Shown: piece after piece, positions 1 to 6,268 of the stretch
Layout: each line of letters opens with the position of its first letter
Position numbering within the stretch: position 1 is the stretch's first letter
Source: an uncultured Oscillospiraceae bacterium
GTDB lineage: Bacteria; Bacillota; Clostridia; Oscillospirales; Ruminococcaceae
Reading direction: 5' to 3'
DNA: 6,268 nucleotides
Assembly (NCBI GenBank): GCA_934408835.1
Contig: CAKRVU010000080.1
Location: forward strand, 1-6,268
The notes under the pieces: generated by a model
Seen by the model: the letters and a program-made list of their open reading frames with translations, nothing else
The model's database searches: none
What the model was told of the DNA's origin: nothing
Made by a program: the position numbers and the translations under genes

Positions 1-69
1 AGCTAGAGAGACTAGTGTTGCGGTAGCAGTAGCTTTATTACTGATATCTGTATAACGAATTTGCAACAT
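1..69 (-). CDS. 5' end of an unrecognised leftward gene (partial)
   Basis: An open frame of 23 codons runs from an ATG at 69-67 off the left edge. The start is supported by a GGGGG-type ribosome binding site about 8 nt upstream on the minus strand (complement of about 78-84) and by a well-formed sigma-A promoter further upstream (148-176). The visible peptide begins MLQIRYTDIS and continues with an alanine/threonine-rich stretch. I recognise no family from so short a piece. There is no obvious signal peptide. It is divergent from spoIIID. The start signals make a real gene likely; its function is unknown. Confidence 0.6.
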   Translation of the reverse strand, partial: MLQIRYTDISNKATATATLVSLA

Positions 70-105
70 AGCTCGTTCCCCCTTCATGGAATACAAATTT
101 CGACA

Positions 106-127
106 GTGCGGAAGAATATTCCGACAC
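106..127. promoter_or_regulatory. Inverted repeat in the leader of the leftward gene
   Basis: CGGAA (109-113) pairs with TTCCG (119-123) around a 5-nt loop. The stem extends through GTG (106-108) and CAC (125-127) if A124 is bulged. GAATATTC (114-121) is itself a perfect palindrome. The element lies between the predicted transcription start near 141 and the start codon at 69, so it could be an operator or a leader hairpin. No T-run follows on the minus strand, so it does not look like a terminator. The role is inferred only from position. Confidence 0.3.
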
Positions 128-147
128 ACAATGTAAAATATACCAAC

Positions 148-176
148 ATCATAGCACAAAAATTGGATGATGTCAA
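148..176 (-). promoter_or_regulatory. Sigma-A promoter for the leftward gene at 1-69
   Basis: On the minus strand there is a perfect -35 box TTGACA (complement of 171-176), a 17-bp spacer and a -10 box TATGAT (complement of 148-153), one mismatch from consensus. Transcription would start near 141 and give a leader of about 70 nt before the ATG at 69. It is the best housekeeping promoter match in the left intergenic region and points away from spoIIID. Confidence 0.75.
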
Positions 177-500
177 GAAAAAAGACTTCTATTAAAAAGG
201 TATGAATTGTTAGAAAAGTGATTGGAAAGCCAGGAAACGCACAGGTGGAAAATGTGTAGTGAGGCTCTTTTGAAAAAACAAAGCAACGCAGGCATCATTT
301 GAGTAAAAAGCGGAGTGGTGCAGAGATGTGCGTCGAATCTGTCTCAATTTTGGGGTAGCAGAGGGATTACACGGAAGGCGTCCATGCAGTTGAGCGATTA
401 TTTTGTTTGGTTTTGTATCATAAAGCATATTTGCGCATATAGATAAACATGACAGAATGCTTTTCAGATGATCTGCAACGGCATTGTTCAAATAATATGT
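177..500. other. Intergenic stretch with no convincing gene
   Basis: Together with 70-176, this leaves about 440 bases between the leftward gene start and the spoIIID start. Short open frames exist on both strands, but none has a ribosome binding site plus recognisable protein content. Sigma-E-like fragments occur just upstream of spoIIID: CATATAGA at 436-443 resembles a -10 box, and GCATATT at 425-431 and TCATAAA at 418-424 resemble -35 boxes. I could not pair any of these at the usual 13-15 bp spacing, so the spoIIID promoter is not firmly placed. Confidence 0.5.
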
Positions 501-506
501 GAGGTG
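501..506 (+). promoter_or_regulatory. Ribosome binding site setting the spoIIID TTG start
   Basis: GAGGTG at 501-506 lies 6 nt before the TTG at 513. This spacing favours TTG-513 over the in-frame ATG at 468, which has no purine-rich box near it and would add 15 residues absent from known SpoIIID proteins. Confidence 0.6.
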
Positions 507-512
507 TTTAAC

Positions 513-746
513 TTGAAAATTCAAATCGATGATCGCTGCATCATGCTCGGTAATTATATTGTAGAACATAAATCGACAGTACGTGCGGCAGCTAGGGAGT
601 TTGGCATTTCCAAAAGTACCGTACATACAGATGTTGGGTGTTGGAATGGTCAAAGGCGTTTTAAGATTGCGGGAATGGGTACGACCGAACCACACAACAG
701 AAATAGGTTAACCGGCGAAATAGTCTATCAGACCATGTTCTTTTAA
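513..746 (+). CDS. spoIIID: SpoIIID N-terminal half, interrupted by the element
   Basis: SpoIIID is a small DNA-binding regulator of the sporulation mother cell, acting between sigma-E and sigma-K. Codons from the TTG at 513 to 626 encode 38 residues that match its N-terminal half: a first helix with LGNYIVEHKSTVR, then the start of the helix-turn-helix, AAAREFGISKSTVH. After 626 the similarity stops and the frame runs 39 unrelated codons into the element, ending with the TAA at 744-746 and overlapping the 3' end of the leftward radC gene. In this configuration it can give only a 77-residue chimera that lacks the end of the recognition helix and the C-terminal helices. The missing half is at 3335-3469, in frame if 2,708 bp are removed. 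Family assignment is from motif recall, not a search. Confidence 0.88.
   Translation: MKIQIDDRCIMLGNYIVEHKSTVRAAAREFGISKSTVHTDVGCWNGQRRFKIAGMGTTEPHNRNRLTGEIVYQTMFF
601..648 (+). other. Left attachment site (attL) of the spoIIID element
   Basis: The left junction contains GTACATA at 621-627, repeated exactly at 3329-3335. Left of it is spoIIID coding sequence; right of it (626-648) is one arm of the predicted attP palindrome. The likely crossover dinucleotide is CA at 624-625, the asymmetric centre between GTA and TAC. It falls in the histidine codon of the SKSTVHKD recognition-helix motif. Confidence 0.75.
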
Positions 747-1442
747 GGAATAATAGTCCAGATTTTTTCCTACAATGATATGATCTTCCAATAAAATACC
801 AATTTCAGCAAGCGTATTTTTCAAAGACTGGGTTAAATAACGGTCATCGCGAGATGGAGTAGCCATACCGAGGGGATGGTTGTGCGACAATAAAATCCGA
901 TGACTCTGATGCTTCATGGCAAATTGAACAATCATTGAATTGATAACAGGAACCTGATTGAAGTCGCCTTCATCGAGAATTTTCCACGCGGTAATGTGAT
1001 TTTCATCGTCTAGTGCCGCGATTAGCAATATTTCAACGGTACGTCCGATGTATTTGGGAACGAGGAACTGGGAGCGCTTTTCGGTGGTGTCATAAACCGC
1101 GCCCGGCTGCAGCTTGGAATCCATATATCGCTGGAACAGCTGTGGAATCAGTTTGATTAAGGTTGCGGTATGTTTACTAATTCCTTTAATCTTACACAAT
1201 TCTTCATAAGGAGCGTCAAAGACGCTATGAAGAGCGCCGAACTCGTTGAGCAGCTCGTGCGCAAGCGCATTGGTATCCTTGATTGGTATGGTATAAAAGA
1301 GGAGCAATTCAAGTACGTTATGAGTTTCAAACGAGTCCAGACCTTCCCTTAAAAATCGGTTTTTTGTCCGAATTCGATGATATTTGTGGAGATCGGAAGC
1401 AGAAGATTTTTTAGGGGATTTGGTTTGATTAGACGATGACAT
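708..1442 (-). CDS. radC: RadC-family JAB/JAMM-domain protein (UPF0758), element cargo
   Basis: This 244-residue protein has the RadC layout. A basic N-terminal tail (1-30) is followed by a helix-hairpin-helix region (about 45-105, with KGISKHTATLIK around 86-97) and a C-terminal JAB/MPN-type metalloprotease-like domain (about 115-240). The metal motif H-x-H-x10-D is intact as H187, H189 and D200 in HNHPLGMATPSRDD, and a likely partner glutamate is E137. The biochemical role of RadC is unsettled; an old link to DNA repair was withdrawn, and family members are common on mobile DNA. I chose the ATG at 1442-1440 because AAAGGA lies 8 nt upstream; an in-frame ATG at 1451 would put that box directly against the start. 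It lies wholly within the element, divergent from the recombinase operon, and would leave the chromosome on excision. Confidence 0.85.
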   Translation of the reverse strand: MSSSNQTKSPKKSSASDLHKYHRIRTKNRFLREGLDSFETHNVLELLLFYTIPIKDTNALAHELLNEFGALHSVFDAPYEELCKIKGISKHTATLIKLIPQLFQRYMDSKLQPGAVYDTTEKRSQFLVPKYIGRTVEILLIAALDDENHITAWKILDEGDFNQVPVINSMIVQFAMKHQSHRILLSHNHPLGMATPSRDDRYLTQSLKNTLAEIGILLEDHIIVGKNLDYYSLKEHGLIDYFAG

Positions 1443-1536
1443 GTCAAACATCCTTTCTTATGGAACGATGATTGAGACGGCGGTTTCCTGATTAGGGGAG
1501 TGGCTGCAAAGGACGCCAATCATCAAATTTATCTTT

Positions 1537-1565
1537 ATTATACCTCATTTTGACATTATTTTCCA
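1537..1565 (-). promoter_or_regulatory. Sigma-A-type promoter for radC
   Basis: On the minus strand a perfect TATAAT (complement of 1537-1542) is preceded by a 17-bp spacer and TGGAAA (complement of 1560-1565), four of six matches to TTGACA. The start would be near 1530, leaving a leader of roughly 90 nt. This suggests the cargo gene is expressed in growing cells, unlike the recombinase operon on the other side of the same region. Confidence 0.5.
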
Positions 1566-1610
1566 GACTGTTTTTAAAATTTTTTCAGGAATTTGTATGA
1601 TGTTAATTTT

Positions 1611-1640
1611 GAATAAGCGGCAATCTCAGCTGCATATAGT
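1611..1640 (+). promoter_or_regulatory. Sigma-E-like promoter of the recombinase operon
   Basis: GAATAAG at 1611-1617 fits the sigma-E -35 pattern (k-m-ATA-w-w, last base off). CATATAGT at 1633-1640 fits the -10 pattern CATAyAnT. The spacer is 15 bp, within the usual range. A start near 1647 precedes the small ORF ribosome binding site by about 10 nt. No clear sigma-A promoter in the rightward direction was seen here. Mother-cell control would match a developmentally timed recombinase. The consensus is recalled, and the promoter was not tested. Confidence 0.5.
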
Positions 1641-1670
1641 GGGATAACAGATAAAAAGGAGGGGAAAAGA

Positions 1671-1874
1671 TTGCAACCGAAAAGGACAAGCATGGAGGTT
1701 GTTTTTCACAATCCCAATCAGGAGCGGGATATGGTGCAGTTCCTTCTGTTTCGGATTGCAGAGGATCTAATCGGTCGTTTGGAGAAGACAACTGCATGGA
1801 CGAGGGAAGGGGAAGAAATTGAAGATTGCAGCTTACTGTCGGGTATCGACGGACAAGACAGATCAAATCAATAG
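1671..1874 (+). CDS. Small 67-residue protein overlapping the recombinase gene
   Basis: This ORF starts with TTG at 1671, about 6 nt after a very strong ribosome binding site, AAGGAGGGG (1656-1664). An alternative ATG at 1692 is preceded by AAAGGA. The protein is short, soluble and charged, with a likely amphipathic helix in QFLLFRIAEDLIGRLEK and no cysteine pair, membrane segment or signal peptide. I do not recognise a family. Its last 56 nt overlap the recombinase start in another frame, so translation is probably coupled. A small protein next to a serine recombinase could be a recombination directionality factor, like SprB of SPbeta or the skin-encoded factor reported in Clostridioides difficile. 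That is inference from position and size only. Confidence 0.6.
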   Translation: MQPKRTSMEVVFHNPNQERDMVQFLLFRIAEDLIGRLEKTTAWTREGEEIEDCSLLSGIDGQDRSNQ

Positions 1875-3336
1875 TCTTCAGGCGCAAATCCGATTTTTTT
1901 CGGAGTTTACGGAAAAAGAAGGACATGAACTGGTGGGGATCTACGCCGATGAGGGAATTTCCGGAACCAGAATGAAGAACCGCCGTGAGTTCCTTCGATT
2001 GCTTTCCGACGCGAAAGACGGATTGTTTGAAATGGTGGTTGTAAAGGATATTTCGCGTTTTGCAAGGAACACGGTGGATTTTTTGCAGAGCGTTCGCGAA
2101 TTAAAAACGATGGGAGTTGAAACGGTTTTTTTGACGGCGAATATGTCGGCGTTAGGAAATTCGGAGTTTGTTCTCACCATTTTCGGGGCGCTTGCGCAGG
2201 AAGAAAGCGCAAACACCTCTAAACGCGTCAAGTTCGGAAAGCAGATCAATGCTCAAAAAGGGCGGGTTCCCAATTTGATATATGGATACGAAAAAACAGC
2301 GGGCGATTATTTCCATTTGGAAATCAATCAGGCGGAAGCGGACGTGATTCGAAGGATTTTTTCTCGTTATACGCAAGAGGGGTTGGGGTGCACCAGAATA
2401 GCCAATTGGTTAAATCAGGCGGGATTCCGAACCAAAAGGGGCTACTTATGGTCACAGAATGCGGTTTCGCGTATTTTGCAAAACCCGATTTATCAGGGGG
2501 ATGTGGTGAATGGGAAGGAAGAAGTGGCAGATTTTTTAACTGGACGGAGAGTGCGAAAAAAGGAGCAGGACTGGGTAGTTGTCCGGCGACCGGAGCTTGC
2601 AATTGTTTCCGATGAGGTGTTTGCATCAGCGCAACAAATTTTCCAGTCCAGGAGATCTCAAAAAGGATCGCCGCCAAAGTGCAGGCAGCTGAGTTCCTCT
2701 CTTTATCGCAACCTGATTCGCTGTCAATTGTGCGGGTATCCGTATCGCAGAGTGATACGCAGATACCAAAATACCTATATTCGGTGGATTTGCAGCGGTC
2801 ATAACGGGAAAGGAAACGATTTTTGCGGGAATAAGTTTGCTGTTGACGAAGGAGAATTGACGGAAGAAATCAAACGATATCTATTTTCTTTGTTTCATTC
2901 TCAGAGGGAATGGGTAGAACGGGAATGGACGCGCGCACTCCATCGGGGGCGAAGGAAACATGGAGACGAACAAAACAGGCGCAGACTAGAAGAAACTGCA
3001 TATCGCTTGCGACAGAAAAAAGCGAGGTACCTTTCTTTATATGGCGATGAGCTGCTCACACGCGAAGAACTGGAGCCGCTGCTGGCGGCCCTTGAGGACA
3101 AGCTTGACGAGATATCCCGTCTGCAAAAGGAAGAGGGAGCCGCTGAGCAAACGGAGGGGGGCTGCAATGCCGAACAATGGTCGGAAGAAGAAATCCTGCA
3201 GGATTGGTTTGAAGGGATTACCCGGGCGCGATTTGCAGAAATTGTTGATAGGATTGAGGTTGCCGAGTCTGGAACAGTGGAAGTGTATTTCAGACTACTG
3301 CAAAAAAACGTTCCGACTCGTAACGTCGGTACATAA
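1819..3336 (+). CDS. Large serine recombinase (SpoIVCA-like), excisionase of the spoIIID element
   Basis: This 505-residue protein is close in length to SpoIVCA. The resolvase-type catalytic domain (about 1-145) holds the nucleophile S10 in YCRVSTD, the GISGTRMKNR loop (46-55), and R80 and R84 in DISRFARN. A recombinase domain follows (about 155-275, GYEKTAG onward), then a zinc-ribbon (C302, C305, C325, C336), a charged coiled-coil region (about 385-440) and a C-terminal tail. The TTG start at 1819 is forced: it follows a GGAAGGGG box by about 6 nt and gives MKIAAYCRVS, the typical N-terminus; the next in-frame ATG would remove S10. The stop TAA (3334-3336) lies in the right attachment core. 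In the excised circle the frame would continue 12 codons to the TAA at 662-664. All expected catalytic residues seem present, so the enzyme is probably active. Confidence 0.93.
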   Translation: MKIAAYCRVSTDKTDQINSLQAQIRFFSEFTEKEGHELVGIYADEGISGTRMKNRREFLRLLSDAKDGLFEMVVVKDISRFARNTVDFLQSVRELKTMGVETVFLTANMSALGNSEFVLTIFGALAQEESANTSKRVKFGKQINAQKGRVPNLIYGYEKTAGDYFHLEINQAEADVIRRIFSRYTQEGLGCTRIANWLNQAGFRTKRGYLWSQNAVSRILQNPIYQGDVVNGKEEVADFLTGRRVRKKEQDWVVVRRPELAIVSDEVFASAQQIFQSRRSQKGSPPKCRQLSSSLYRNLIRCQLCGYPYRRVIRRYQNTYIRWICSGHNGKGNDFCGNKFAVDEGELTEEIKRYLFSLFHSQREWVEREWTRALHRGRRKHGDEQNRRRLEETAYRLRQKKARYLSLYGDELLTREELEPLLAALEDKLDEISRLQKEEGAAEQTEGGCNAEQWSEEEILQDWFEGITRARFAEIVDRIEVAESGTVEVYFRLLQKNVPTRNVGT

Positions 3337-3355
3337 AGACGTCAGTACACGCTTG
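3309..3355 (+). other. Right attachment site (attR) of the spoIIID element
   Basis: GTACATA at 3329-3335 is the right copy of the core. The sequence to its left (3309-3331) is the second arm of the predicted attP palindrome and also encodes the recombinase C-terminus. To its right is spoIIID coding sequence. The predicted crossover dinucleotide CA is at 3332-3333. The site overlaps the recombinase stop codon. Confidence 0.75.
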
Positions 3356-3469
3356 GAGCGGGTGAATCCGCAGTTATATCAGCAGGTAAAGCAGGTTTTG
3401 GAGATCAACAAGCAAGAACGGCATATCCGCGGGGGAATTGCCACCCGCAAAAAATATCGCGGCGAGTAA
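3329..3469 (+). CDS. spoIIID: SpoIIID C-terminal half, displaced by the element
   Basis: Reading GTA at 3329 onward gives VHKDVSTRLERVNPQLYQQV and then a tail with ERHIRGGIATRKKY before the TAA at 3467-3469. This matches the second half of SpoIIID: the end of the recognition helix, the R-L-x-x-x-N-P turn, and the basic R-H-I-R-G-G-x-A-T-x-x-K-Y tail. It has no ribosome binding site and start of its own that would give a useful protein; a GTG at 3362 could only yield a 35-residue piece. Excision supplies the N-terminal half at 513-626 and gives an 82-residue SpoIIID, a little shorter than the B. subtilis protein of about 93. The frame is intact with no extra stops, so the sequence still seems under selection. 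It overlaps the recombinase 3' end by 8 bp. Confidence 0.88.
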   Translation, partial: VHKDVSTRLERVNPQLYQQVKQVLEINKQERHIRGGIATRKKYRGE

Positions 3470-3476
3470 AAATCTC

Positions 3477-3505
3477 TTGACAAATATCAAAAAAACAATT
3501 ATATT
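3477..3505 (+). promoter_or_regulatory. Sigma-A promoter for ilvA
   Basis: TTGACA (3477-3482, perfect) and TATATT (3500-3505, five of six) are separated by 17 bp. The promoter starts only 8 bp after the spoIIID stop. The predicted leader is about 55 nt and shows no T-box-like or attenuator structure long enough to support. It gives ilvA expression independent of spoIIID. Confidence 0.75.
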
Positions 3506-3567
3506 ACAATTAAAGTATTGTTTGGAAATCAATGGATTTGATGTAAAAGCGAAAGAGGAAGAATGAT

Positions 3568-4767
3568 ATGTTGACATTAGACCAAATTTACAAATCTGCT
3601 CATTTATTAAAAGGCGTTGCAGTAGTCACCGATTTGATGAAAGCGCCTAGGCTCTCTGATGATTTTGATATGTATCTGAAAATGGAAAACCTGCAGGTGA
3701 CAGGTTCGTTTAAGGTTCGGGGTGCCTACTGCAAACTGTCGCAACTGACGGAGGCGGAAAAAAAGAGAGGTATTATAGCCTGCTCTGCTGGGAATCATGC
3801 ACAAGGCGTTGCTTTGTCGGCGCAGCGGGCGGGAATTTCTGCAATGATCTGTCTGCCGGATGGGGCGCCGATTTCCAAAATCGAGGCAACCCGCCGCTAT
3901 GGCGCGGAAATTGTTCGGGTTGATGGCGTTTATGATGACGCATATCACCGGGCGATCACCCTTCAAAAACAAACGGGGCGTACTTTTATCCATCCGTTTG
4001 ACGATCTCGATGTGATAGCGGGGCAAGGGACGGTCGGACTGGAGATTATGGAACAGCTTCCGGAAGTCGACGCAATCCTTGTACCTGTTGGCGGCGGCGG
4101 TCTGATTTCAGGCGTTGCTTTCGCTGTCAAATCGCTTTGTCCTCGAGTGAAGGTATACGGCGTCCAGGCGGCTGGGGCGCCCTCGATGTATCAGTCGGTT
4201 CACCATCAGAAAATTGAAGAGCTTCGCGCGGTTGCAACCATCGCGGACGGTATTGCTGTAAAACGACCGGGAGAGCATACCTATGAGCTCTGTAATCAGT
4301 ATGTGGATGATATTGTGACGGTTACGGACGATGAAATTTCAACTGCTATTTTGACCCTTTTGGAAGAACAGAAGGTGATTACAGAGGGCGCGGGCGCAGC
4401 TTCGGTGGCCGCGGCGATGTTTGGGAAATTGCCGTTGCAGGGGAAAAAGGTCGTTTCCATTCTGTCCGGCGGAAATATTGACGTCAGTATCTTATCGCGA
4501 ATTATCACGCGCGGATTAATCAAATCTGGACGTACCACAAAACTGACCATTTCCATTTTAGATCAGCCGGGAGAATTGCAGCGCGTTTGCAAGATTATTT
4601 CGGATTATAATGCCAATGTCATCTCTATTTATCACAATCGAGCGGAAAAGGATTTGAAGTTGAACACCTGCTTTTTGGAGGTCGTTATCGAGACAAGAGA
4701 TCACTCTCATATTGCCATCATTGAGCGGGCTCTGAAAGATTCGGGATATGAAATCATCCGAGATTAA
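3568..4767 (+). CDS. ilvA: Threonine ammonia-lyase with a C-terminal ACT domain
   Basis: This cytoplasmic PLP enzyme deaminates L-threonine to 2-oxobutanoate and ammonia, either as the first step toward isoleucine or for threonine breakdown. The 399 residues show a fold-type II PLP domain (1 to about 320): K49 in TGSFKVRGA forms the Schiff base, SAGNHAQG is at 73-80, the phosphate-binding loop GGGGL is at 175-179, and SGGN near 304 contacts the cofactor. A single ACT domain follows (about 325-399, starting TKLTISILDQPGELQRV). This is the architecture of the shorter one-ACT threonine dehydratases, not the two-ACT E. coli IlvA, so a catabolic TdcB-like role is also possible. The ATG at 3568 follows an AGAGG box (3554-3558). 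It has its own promoter and terminator and is apparently monocistronic. There are no frameshifts. Confidence 0.92.
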   Translation: MLTLDQIYKSAHLLKGVAVVTDLMKAPRLSDDFDMYLKMENLQVTGSFKVRGAYCKLSQLTEAEKKRGIIACSAGNHAQGVALSAQRAGISAMICLPDGAPISKIEATRRYGAEIVRVDGVYDDAYHRAITLQKQTGRTFIHPFDDLDVIAGQGTVGLEIMEQLPEVDAILVPVGGGGLISGVAFAVKSLCPRVKVYGVQAAGAPSMYQSVHHQKIEELRAVATIADGIAVKRPGEHTYELCNQYVDDIVTVTDDEISTAILTLLEEQKVITEGAGAASVAAAMFGKLPLQGKKVVSILSGGNIDVSILSRIITRGLIKSGRTTKLTISILDQPGELQRVCKIISDYNANVISIYHNRAEKDLKLNTCFLEVVIETRDHSHIAIIERALKDSGYEIIRD

Positions 4768-4915
4768 ACGGATTGCGCTCTTGAAGAAGCAAACCGTCCT
4801 GTCTGTTTTCGGGACAGATGGGGGGCGCGTTTCTTTGACAGGCGGTATTTTCCCGACTTCTTGATGAGGCATTTGTTACGATAGAATTCAATAAAACAGG
4901 AATGATAAAACAAAC

Positions 4916-4951
4916 AAAGCAACGGAGGATATTGTCTCCGTTGCTTTTGTT
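4916..4951 (+). terminator. Intrinsic terminator after ilvA
   Basis: A perfect 12-bp stem pairs AAAGCAACGGAG (4916-4927) with CTCCGTTGCTTT (4936-4947) around an 8-nt loop, followed by a T-rich run (TTTTGTT). It sits about 150 nt after the ilvA stop and just before the ylmC gene, so it separates the two transcription units. The A-rich left flank could also let it act leftward. Confidence 0.88.
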
Positions 4952-4991
4952 ATCATTATCATGAGCGTTCATGAAGAGGGGAGGAGCAGGT

Positions 4992-5306
4992 ATGACCACA
5001 AACGAACGGCTCTGTAAACTGGAAGATTTGCGGAATAAGGATGTAATTAATTTAAAAAATGGTGCGCGGATTGGGAGCGTCGACGATGTTGTTATCAATA
5101 TTGAATGCGCTACAGTCGTGTCTTTAGTGATTTACGGACGCCGGAAATGCTTTGGGCTTCTGGGGCGGGAGAGCGATGTCATTATTTCGTGGAAGGATAT
5201 CAGCGTTATCGGGGAGGACACGGTTTTAGTATGCCTGGAGGGAGGGAATCCTCCTTCTTGCGGATGCAAAAAGAAAGGACGTTTTTTGGCGTCCTTGTTT
5301 GAATGA
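4992..5306 (+). CDS. YlmC/YmxH-family sporulation protein (PRC-barrel)
   Basis: The 104-residue protein matches the small YlmC/YmxH family found across spore-formers, which consists of a PRC-barrel-like beta domain. Diagnostic stretches are ERLCKLEDLRNKDVINLKNG near the N-terminus (about 5-24), the IGSVDDVVINIE strand pair, and IISWKDISVIGEDTVLV (about 71-87). The tail is cysteine- and lysine-rich (SCGCKKKGRF). There is no membrane segment. The molecular role is not established; membership in spore-former genomes suggests a sporulation link. The start at 4992 is set by a GGGGAGGAG box (4978-4986) about 5 nt upstream; an in-frame ATG at 4971 lacks such a box. The gene follows the ilvA terminator and converges on the aminotransferase gene. 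Confidence 0.82.
   Translation: MTTNERLCKLEDLRNKDVINLKNGARIGSVDDVVINIECATVVSLVIYGRRKCFGLLGRESDVIISWKDISVIGEDTVLVCLEGGNPPSCGCKKKGRFLASLFE
5275..5296 (+). terminator. Possible hairpin terminator overlapping the end of ylmC
   Basis: AAGGACG (5275? to 5281 reading 5275-5281 as A-A-G-G-A-C-G) pairs with CGTCCTT (5290-5296) around an 8-nt loop, forming a 7-bp stem inside the last codons of the ylmC gene. Only a short TGTTT follows, so termination strength is doubtful. I saw no better terminator between the convergent genes. Confidence 0.25.
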
Positions 5307-5376
5307 TATCATCCATTTGATTGAGATGAGTCTGGTTGTAATCTATCATGCTGTTTGCGGAGTTTATGGATTGATA

Positions 5377-6268
5377 TCAGGCAAAAGCGGTTGCTTCGGG
5401 TTCTTGACCGCGATCACGCAGGATTTTCTCGATACTGGCTATTTTGACACAGACGCAAAAAACCTGCATGGCTTGTTCCAGTTCTCCGATGGGGGGATAG
5501 GTAGGCGCAATTCGGATGTTCCGATTGAGCGGGTCGATTCCATAGGGATAGGTGGCGCCGACTTTGGTTAAAACAACGCCAGCTTGCTTGCAAAGCTCTC
5601 CGATTCGTTTCCCGCATCCGGGTAAGGCGTCGAACGAAATAAAATAACCGCCCCTAGGCTCAGTCCAGTTGCCAATTCCGCAGGGAGTAATTTGCCGATT
5701 GAGATACTCGATGACGAGATCGAATTTTGGCTTAATGATTTTTGCGTGCGCCTCCATATGACGCTGCAGTTTTCCCTCTGAGCCGAAAAATTTGCAATGC
5801 CGAAGTTGATTGATTTTATCATGCCCGATGGTTTGAATCGACATGATAGATAAAATATACTTGATATTTTTGGGAGTTGTTGCCAAGGCTGAAATGCCGC
5901 CGCCGGGGAAGGATATTTTAGAGGTTGAGGTGAATTCTAATACCATATCTTCGCTGTGATATGTTTGGCAAGCATCAAAAATATTGAGCAGCCGGTCATG
6001 GGATTCTGCTAGGTGATGGACAACATAGGCGTTGTCCCAGAAAATCTGAAAATCCTTTGCGGCGGGCTTTAACGCGGCAAAGGCGCGGACAACCTCGTCC
6101 GAATAGGTGATTCCTGTGGGATTCGAGTATTTTGGTACGCACCAGATTCCTTTGACGAGGGGATCTTGTTCTACTAAATTCCGAATTTGATTCATATTGG
6201 GACCGTCTTTGTTCATGGAAATCTGGATCATTTCAATTCCAAACAGCTCGCAGATGGCAAAGTGACGG
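5377..6268 (-). CDS. PLP-dependent aminotransferase, aspartate aminotransferase family (C-terminal part)
   Basis: A leftward frame is open from the right edge to the TGA at 5379-5377; 296 residues are visible and the N-terminus lies outside the window. It is a fold-type I aminotransferase. Visible motifs are KYSNPTG (the NPTG turn), FWDNAYVVHHL (the aspartate contacting the PLP ring nitrogen and a nearby tyrosine), and STSKISFPGGGIS, whose lysine is the Schiff-base residue. EPRGGYFISF and NIRIAPTYPP follow, the latter with the substrate-carboxylate arginine. The overall wording resembles the clostridial class I/II group often annotated as aspartate aminotransferase of about 420 residues, so roughly 120 residues would be missing. 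The exact amino donor cannot be read from sequence. It is a cytoplasmic enzyme, convergent with ylmC, with about 70 bp between the stops. Confidence 0.88.
   Translation of the reverse strand, partial: RHFAICELFGIEMIQISMNKDGPNMNQIRNLVEQDPLVKGIWCVPKYSNPTGITYSDEVVRAFAALKPAAKDFQIFWDNAYVVHHLAESHDRLLNIFDACQTYHSEDMVLEFTSTSKISFPGGGISALATTPKNIKYILSIMSIQTIGHDKINQLRHCKFFGSEGKLQRHMEAHAKIIKPKFDLVIEYLNRQITPCGIGNWTEPRGGYFISFDALPGCGKRIGELCKQAGVVLTKVGATYPYGIDPLNRNIRIAPTYPPIGELEQAMQVFCVCVKIASIEKILRDRGQEPEATAFA

Follow-up and report, generated by a model that had tools for sequence, protein, structure and literature searches.

An element with its own serine recombinase divides the sporulation gene spoIIID in an uncultured Oscillospiraceae bacterium and is predicted to be excised in the mother cell

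The present study concerns a stretch of 6,268 nucleotides from an uncultured Oscillospiraceae bacterium (GenBank assembly GCA_934408835.1, contig CAKRVU010000080.1, positions 1 to 6,268 of the forward strand), which we refer to as the window. In this stretch spoIIID, a mother-cell gene whose product acts upstream of sigK, is divided by an insert of 2,708 bp, whose removal in silico restores the reading frame precisely. We consider it probable that a large serine recombinase encoded by this element would excise it precisely in the mother cell, likely under the control of sigma-E, and would thus rejoin spoIIID before the SpoIIID stage. The case for this prediction rests most strongly on the recurrence of the insertion at one codon, together with the dyad symmetry of the element ends, and not on the direct repeat that flanks it. 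Where they have to be told apart, the genomes, contigs, loci and proteins used for comparison are cited by our handles (G, C, L and P).

The divided gene and its insert

Both parts of spoIIID are open and are encoded on the forward strand. The first (513–625) begins with a TTG start codon and comprises residues 1–37 and the bases CA of the codon of His38 (PF12116, 4.4e-13; TIGR02844, 5.8e-12), and the second (3334–3469) contributes the last base of this codon, residues 39–82 and the stop codon (PF12116, 2.9e-18; TIGR02844, 8.2e-16). In the SpoIIID profiles of Pfam and NCBIfam they cover positions 3–37 and 38–79/80, without gap or overlap. Their joining at the repeat in silico yields a single frame of 82 codons in which the motif SKSTVHKD is preserved and whose product passes the curated cut-off of TIGR02844 (115.6 vs 111.5 bits), compared to 45.8 and 58.1 bits for the separate halves and 49.0 bits, below the same cut-off, for the open reading frame (ORF) of the N-terminal half in its unexcised form. 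A preliminary description of this DNA had proposed that spoIIID is split by a skin-like recombinase element and that joining of the repeats would restore frame and motif; the former is borne out by the window and by the comparative data, with excision itself being a prediction, and the latter by the properties of the joined frame.

The same description had placed the halves at 513–626 and 3335–3469; the crossover is best located at the bases CA, inside the repeat and inside the codon of His38, leading to the boundaries given above. The direct repeats GTACATA that it described are present at 621–627 and 3329–3335, with a spacing of 2,708 bp, but a repeat of 7 bp by itself proves nothing, since by simple arithmetic about one shared 7-mer is expected by chance between two stretches of 120 nucleotides and since chance repeats of 6–10 bp are present in other loci too. 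Inside each repeat resides a core dinucleotide CA (624–625 in the left attachment site attL and 3332–3333 in the right site attR, both on the forward strand), about which a left arm (626–655) and a right arm (3302–3331, also coding for the C-terminus of the recombinase), both described on the forward strand, form an imperfect inverted repeat. In this dyad 17 of 30 positions pair, a number that is matched by none of 2000 shuffles and that compares to at most 11 at 16 other centres. The pattern recurs in a set of 23 elements including the window, where CA is again the exact centre of the dyad (427 of 690 pairs vs fractions of 0.18–0.31 at 16 shifted centres) and where, with the cores aligned on CA, this dinucleotide is the sole pair of neighbouring bases common to both sides in all 23 cases. 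The centring of the dyad and the exclusive sharing of CA thus suggest that the crossover likely proceeds within the codon of His38 (CA/T), at 624–625 and 3332–3333.

A separate observation concerns genome G212 (C147, 38737–38968; L137), whose spoIIID contains no element and carries a frameshift exactly at the predicted crossover, which is possibly either the scar of a faulty excision or an assembly error.

Three genes are recognized in the element. The recombinase (1819–3336, forward strand; 505 residues), which had already been noted in the insert, is intact and contains resolvase, recombinase and zinc-ribbon domains (PF00239, PF07508, PF13408); in an alignment with five relatives, Ser10, Arg8, Cys302, Cys305, Cys325 and Cys336, to which we presumptively assign catalytic and zinc-binding roles, are invariant. 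Its stop codon TAA (3334–3336) is located on the spoIIID side of the core. An ORF of 67 residues (1671–1874, forward strand), with a TTG start behind AGGAGG and the profile of a small protein conserved in spoIIID elements, encodes a candidate recombination directionality factor. The third gene (708–1451, reverse strand) is cargo and encodes a RadC-like protein of 247 residues with a JAB domain (PF04002, 3.2e-27). The recombinase and the RadC-like protein match PHROG families of integrases and DNA-repair proteins, respectively, and no phage structural or replication gene was recognized in the window element, which thus does not present itself as a prophage. Among the other spoIIID loci fetched by the time of comparison there was no match to radC, which is found in the window only. 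The cargo varies and includes, as identified for eight cargo proteins by the first 60 residues of each, riboflavin-pathway domain genes in G172 (where they reside within a spoIIID element of 7.7 kb, L114), flagellin in G320 and surface-polysaccharide-type genes in G024. Since the loss of cargo would hurt a growing cell, its presence would fit a removal only in the doomed mother cell.

Recurrence of the split and movement of the elements

The distribution of divided spoIIID genes was investigated by profile search in 394 genomes around Faecalispora jeddahensis and in a class-level sample of 391 genomes, of which 337 and 280, respectively, contain a match; judging from the name of the centre genome, we take the order to be Oscillospirales and the class to be Clostridia. 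The order sample holds 23 genomes with half-length matches only. After removal of two, 21 remain, 14 with both halves on one contig at a distance of 6.7–35 kb, two with halves on two contigs and five with one half. The class sample adds 13 candidates beyond the already counted G028 and G092; one was dropped, leaving 12 genomes (three with halves on one contig, four on two contigs, three with one half, and two, G640 and G706, whose 5′ half carries a frameshift). Candidates rejected as split genomes were G337, whose match extends across the site and meets a contig edge, G212, whose halves adjoin with a frameshift between them, G523, with a weak match of full length, and G203, with a match too weak for spoIIID. 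In 23 genomes both halves are open, and in each of them the division falls in the codon that is divided in the window; in G397 the residue following His differs and the right core, missed by the pattern search, was read by eye. The elements range from 6.7 to 65 kb, the 2.7 kb of the window being the smallest seen. As genomes with a best match better than about 1e-22 were taken as unsplit, on coordinates listed for part of them, any genome in which an intact copy accompanies a split one would escape, and the counts are thus lower bounds. The best-scoring SpoIIID matches among those listed in the order search are nearly full length.

Split spoIIID genes recur in about 4–6% of the sampled genomes, among bacteria about whose sporulation little is known, and annotation pipelines will report the absence or disruption of spoIIID where the gene is likely present. 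An intact second copy, which would have undermined the significance of the split, was looked for in two other carriers assembled as single contigs, G018 (3.0 Mb) and G535 (4.07 Mb), where the split copy is the sole match of spoIIID grade. The window itself is a single record and could as such be an assembly artefact, but the presence of the recombinase protein in 3 contigs and the split of the same codon in 23 other genomes, including these two single contigs, leave this explanation with a negligible probability.

The recombinase appears tied to this site. When the 394 genomes were searched blindly with the window recombinase (E <= 1e-120, at most three first-look candidates scored per genome), 16 genomes were matched, 15 of which are spoIIID-split, and in all 15 the match adjoins the 3′ half. 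The sole exception is G046 (C2, 98394–99863), where a related recombinase (44%) accompanies an intact spoIIID. The association extends to the end of the protein: among 30 right ends, four are too short and five lack a long ORF ending near the core, and in 16 of the remaining 21, the window included, the stop codon of this ORF directly follows CA on the spoIIID side. The recombinase of G305 extends beyond the core, and those of G080 and G535 are found elsewhere within their elements. Among the 120 database matches listed, 59 of 63 recombinases of 500–520 residues, including P0002 (66% identity), end in Thr, which is suggestive of a stop codon borrowed from spoIIID.

The relationships between the elements do not follow those of their hosts, as reflected in the absent correlation between the relatedness of recombinase and host SpoIIID (Mantel r 0.05, p 0.35, n=17 elements) and in the pair G149/G092, with recombinases of 90% and host SpoIIID proteins of 62% identity. 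In addition, four IMG/VR contigs of 50–119 kb (L160–L163) contain the right arm, CA and the left arm joined at the end of a recombinase, as predicted for a free, palindromic attachment site attP that fits spoIIID. Their recombinases share 71–72% identity with P0009, which is related to the window recombinase, three of the contigs being alike in the printed stretch; the conserved small protein is present in all four, and no spoIIID match was found in the 9.5 kb fetched of each. These contigs were retrieved with an alignment of 14 recombinase relatives; a scan of the viral contigs with the window recombinase alone gave no match, and three weaker matches in the same collection (L164–L166) contain no free attachment site.

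The search for an uninterrupted spoIIID in a near relative led to P0121, a sister SpoIIID that is identical to the window's in 78 of 82 residues and that may originate either from an empty strain or from an excised copy. Named SpoIIID relatives belong to Oscillospiraceae, Porcipelethomonas, Ruminococcus and other Clostridiales, and the setting in Bacillus to which the preliminary description had referred for elements of this kind is thus unlike that of the present host. Outside the element, the host flank encodes a threonine ammonia-lyase (3568–4767, forward strand; TIGR01127, 483.8 bits, above cut-off) that is 57–65% identical to the proteins of its best 80 loci, with no close relative found. 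Metagenome-assembled genomes (MAGs) named Ruminococcus or Oscillospiraceae are near the top of these loci, Gastranaerophilales and others are also present, and spoIIID is found nearby in only one of the 80, in a different arrangement.

Control of excision and integrity of the gene

The small protein upstream of the recombinase belongs to a family of about 50–67 residues with the consensus MKKRKLNYRFHxPN...ANxxKVExAI, which was detected at E < 1e-6 in 16 of 34 sets of loci (four being seeds) and which in 11 of these 16 is encoded within 500 nt upstream of the recombinase. In the window its ORF overlaps the start of the recombinase gene by 56 nt in the +1 frame. A comparison of the ORF with Pfam and NCBIfam at E 1 gave no match and PHROG a single one at E 0.17, a PDB profile search with the family returned nothing below E 0.15, and the AlphaFold model, a single helix with a pTM of 0.36, is uninformative. 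The protein encoded at 1671–1874 is a likely candidate for the directionality factor.

A predicted sigma-E-like promoter (GAATAAG-N15-CATATAGT; 1611–1640, forward strand) precedes this ORF. It was identified (shuffle p 0.02 for this site) with a weight matrix built, with the window left out, from 16 spoIIID promoters at other loci, which we assume to be sigma-E promoters from the known regulation of spoIIID and the consensus. Across 16 elements, sigma-E-like sites before the candidate directionality factor are enriched (Fisher p 5e-11 against dinucleotide shuffles, or plain ones where these failed), and in 14 of them the best site is located 20–45 nt before the start (5.4 expected, p 1.3e-5). 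A scan with the plain sigma-E consensus gave p 0.24 for the window alone. An earlier version of the matrix test was discarded, as it used a mostly coding background and contained the window in its training set, and also returned a significant result upstream of the recombinase (Fisher p 3e-5) reflecting a bias in base composition; both faults were subsequently removed.

These features suggest a mechanism in which both overlapping genes would be transcribed from the promoter at 1611–1640 after polar division, and the 67-residue protein would turn the recombinase from integration to excision. The recombinase would then pair attL with attR, cut at CA and release a circle, whereupon the joined spoIIID could be read from the host promoter. 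The resulting order of events would be sigma-E, excision, SpoIIID and then sigma-K. Because no full SpoIIID can be made from the split locus until excision, the latter has to precede SpoIIID and cannot need it, and because the mother cell dies, the spore would keep the element. That excision would gate the mother-cell cascade, as the preliminary description had proposed, is what we infer from the candidate directionality factor, from the sigma-E-like promoter and from the position that SpoIIID is known to hold ahead of sigK.

An alternative without developmental timing would be a mobile element that uses the conserved spoIIID codon as attachment site and exits at random or under stress, with the excised minority of cells being able to sporulate. 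The independence of recombinase and host relationships and the free attP of related elements in a viral collection would agree with such behaviour, as would the yin element of C. botulinum, which according to the accessible parts of one report is excised at all time points (PMC10747680). Against it speaks that in most of the 16 elements tested the candidate directionality factor follows a sigma-E-like site, and that random excision would cause the permanent loss of cargo such as the riboflavin-pathway domain genes. Moreover, as far as the consulted portions of the literature go, mother-cell sigma factors set the timing of skin and SPbeta, and the recombinases of gin and vfbin are expressed at sporulation, with yin being the exception. 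We thus regard an untimed exit as unlikely compared to excision in the mother cell.

A third possibility is a dead insertion that has permanently broken spoIIID in a host that no longer sporulates. It would account for the fact that excision has not been observed, for the frameshifted 5′ half in G640 and G706 and for relatives with sporulation genes that are described as non-sporulating in the accessible text of PMC8547878. In contrast, of the 25 genomes that yielded both halves, 23 have them both open, and SpoIVA is above cut-off in all 23 split genomes, even if split itself in three. Additionally, the ratio of substitutions in related split pairs indicates that both halves are under purifying selection, with dN of 0.047 and dS of 1.34 in G199/G320, dN of 0.059 and dS of 0.49 in G149/G305, and dN of 0.08–0.16 with dS of 1.70 or saturated in three other pairs; in the recombinases of G199/G320 dN is likewise far below dS (0.047 vs 0.64). 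A dead insertion thus appears highly improbable.

Several observations nevertheless weigh against a developmentally controlled excision and should be considered together. Excision is predicted from sequence, and the host genome of the window may contain a second spoIIID elsewhere. The candidate directionality factor (E < 1e-6) is found in only 12 of the 18 one-contig elements, window included, and is missing in G080, G172, G356, G449, G462 and G535 (the last covered at its ends only). Its family, of 655 proteins, extends to Blautia and Extibacter (P0248, P0268 and others) and so probably acts with recombinases of other sites as well. The promoter match of the window is modest, and four of the 16 elements (G099, G024, G269 and G320) show p > 0.1. 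These elements are not independent, with G305 and G092 sharing one site, and the starts of their small proteins were chosen by us from ribosome-binding sites, with a manual choice for G099 and a doubtful one for G024. The purifying selection may also stem from a time before the split, dS is saturated in two of five pairs, and the frameshift in G640 and G706 (L156–L159), which are AT-rich MAGs of near-identical sequence in this region, may be due to decay or to sequencing error. Finally, the presence of sporulation genes does not prove sporulation, as illustrated by the non-sporulating relatives mentioned above, and spoIVA is itself split in G535, G460 and G698, with only its first 402 positions matched in G397.

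Further genes of the same carriers are interrupted. The split of spoIVA is located near profile position 402 in G535 (C1, 2487075–2494442; L171), G460 (C2, 27145–68041; L174, L175) and G698 (C3, 381–28267; L172, L173), with parts that are 5.9, 39 and 26 kb apart, respectively, and a serine recombinase with 29% identity to that of the window next to the 3′ part; spoIVA appears in none of the lists of interrupted genes met in the accessible parts of the literature on such elements. Split sigK-type genes with parts 6.6 to 78 kb apart are found in six spoIIID-split carriers, G535 (C1, 498635–505944), G460 (C5), G371 (C4), G092 (C34), G199 (C21) and G080 (C1), and contain an internal stop in the 5′ part in G371 and G199. 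Carriers with split sigK-type or spoIVA genes would need further excisions.

Collectively, we lean towards a broader view, with less confidence than in the excision itself, of a family of horizontally moving elements of 2.7–65 kb, likely including phages, whose home would be a single codon in the DNA-binding region of spoIIID across Clostridia, whose recombinase would borrow its stop codon from spoIIID and whose excision would gate the step from sigma-E to SpoIIID; in carriers that also contain elements in sigK and spoIVA, this would imply two or three ordered deletions in the mother cell. Such a family would also provide serine recombinases with defined attachment sites and candidate directionality factors.

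Relationship to known sporulation elements

No report of an interrupted spoIIID was listed in searches of an open-access library, judged from titles and the beginnings of abstracts and with subscription papers and preprints outside their scope, and none was met in the accessible portions of PMC5595907, PMC6957869, PMC5025042, PMC4191935, PMC10747680, PMC5027557, PMC3335513, PMC12946183 and PMC8547878. Two sources were set aside: a spoIIID-like gene is described for phage phi6013 of C. pasteurianum, with no mention of an interrupted spoIIID in the available parts of its description (PMC5027557), and in those of a study on capsid-packaged gut DNA (PMC12946183) skin appears in reference titles only.

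The window element shares with skin-type elements its location within the coding sequence of a mother-cell sporulation gene, the restoration of the frame in silico, an intact large serine recombinase, attachment sites with dyad arms around a central dinucleotide, and the uninterrupted gene in a relative (P0121). The conserved 67-residue protein may correspond to the directionality factor of such elements, and the predicted promoter may provide control by a mother-cell sigma factor. The element resembles skin in sigK (SpoIVCA/Skr in B. subtilis, CD1231/CD1234 in C. difficile), which likewise interrupts a regulator gene of the mother cell and combines a large serine recombinase with a small directionality factor. 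The parallel may extend to gene arrangement, since the gene of Skr, a protein of 64 residues, runs 101 nt into the 5′ end of spoIVCA in the +1 frame according to the available text of PMC6957869, similar to the overlap described here. Unlike skin, the target is spoIIID, one step earlier, and the element has a size of 2.7 kb with no phage structural gene recognized. Whereas the B. subtilis skin recombinase and the excision of skin in C. difficile need SpoIIID besides sigma-E (as stated in the consulted part of PMC5025042), such dependence would be impossible here, and a switch in spoIIID, if true, would work without the regulator that skin systems need.

A second relative in terms of organization is gin in gerE of B. 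cereus ATCC10987 (GirC/GirX), an element of non-phage type that interrupts a very small gene for a regulator of the mother cell, with dyad attachment sites around a central dinucleotide and a directionality factor; it differs by its length of 28.6 kb, its three recombinases and the gene concerned, and is reported from strains of B. cereus and B. toyonensis (accessible sections of PMC5595907). Judging from equally partial sources, vfbin (spoVFB), vrin (spoVR), SPbeta (spsM), phi3T (kamA) and yin (yabG) are alike in that recombinase-borne elements restore sporulation genes but unlike in that these genes are structural, metabolic or encode proteases, with no early regulator among them. The SPbeta integrase SprA/YokA is the nearest solved relative of the window recombinase beyond the catalytic domain (1.1e-9), a distant one that acts at another site. 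The element thus belongs to a known kind, represented by skin, gin and yin, and is widespread; its target is new, and its earlier position in the cascade, one step before sigK, is likely new. Known sporulation rearrangements are either late, as in sigK and gerE, or concern structural and metabolic genes, whereas a switch in spoIIID would, if confirmed, place the excision of DNA at the start of the SpoIIID stage.

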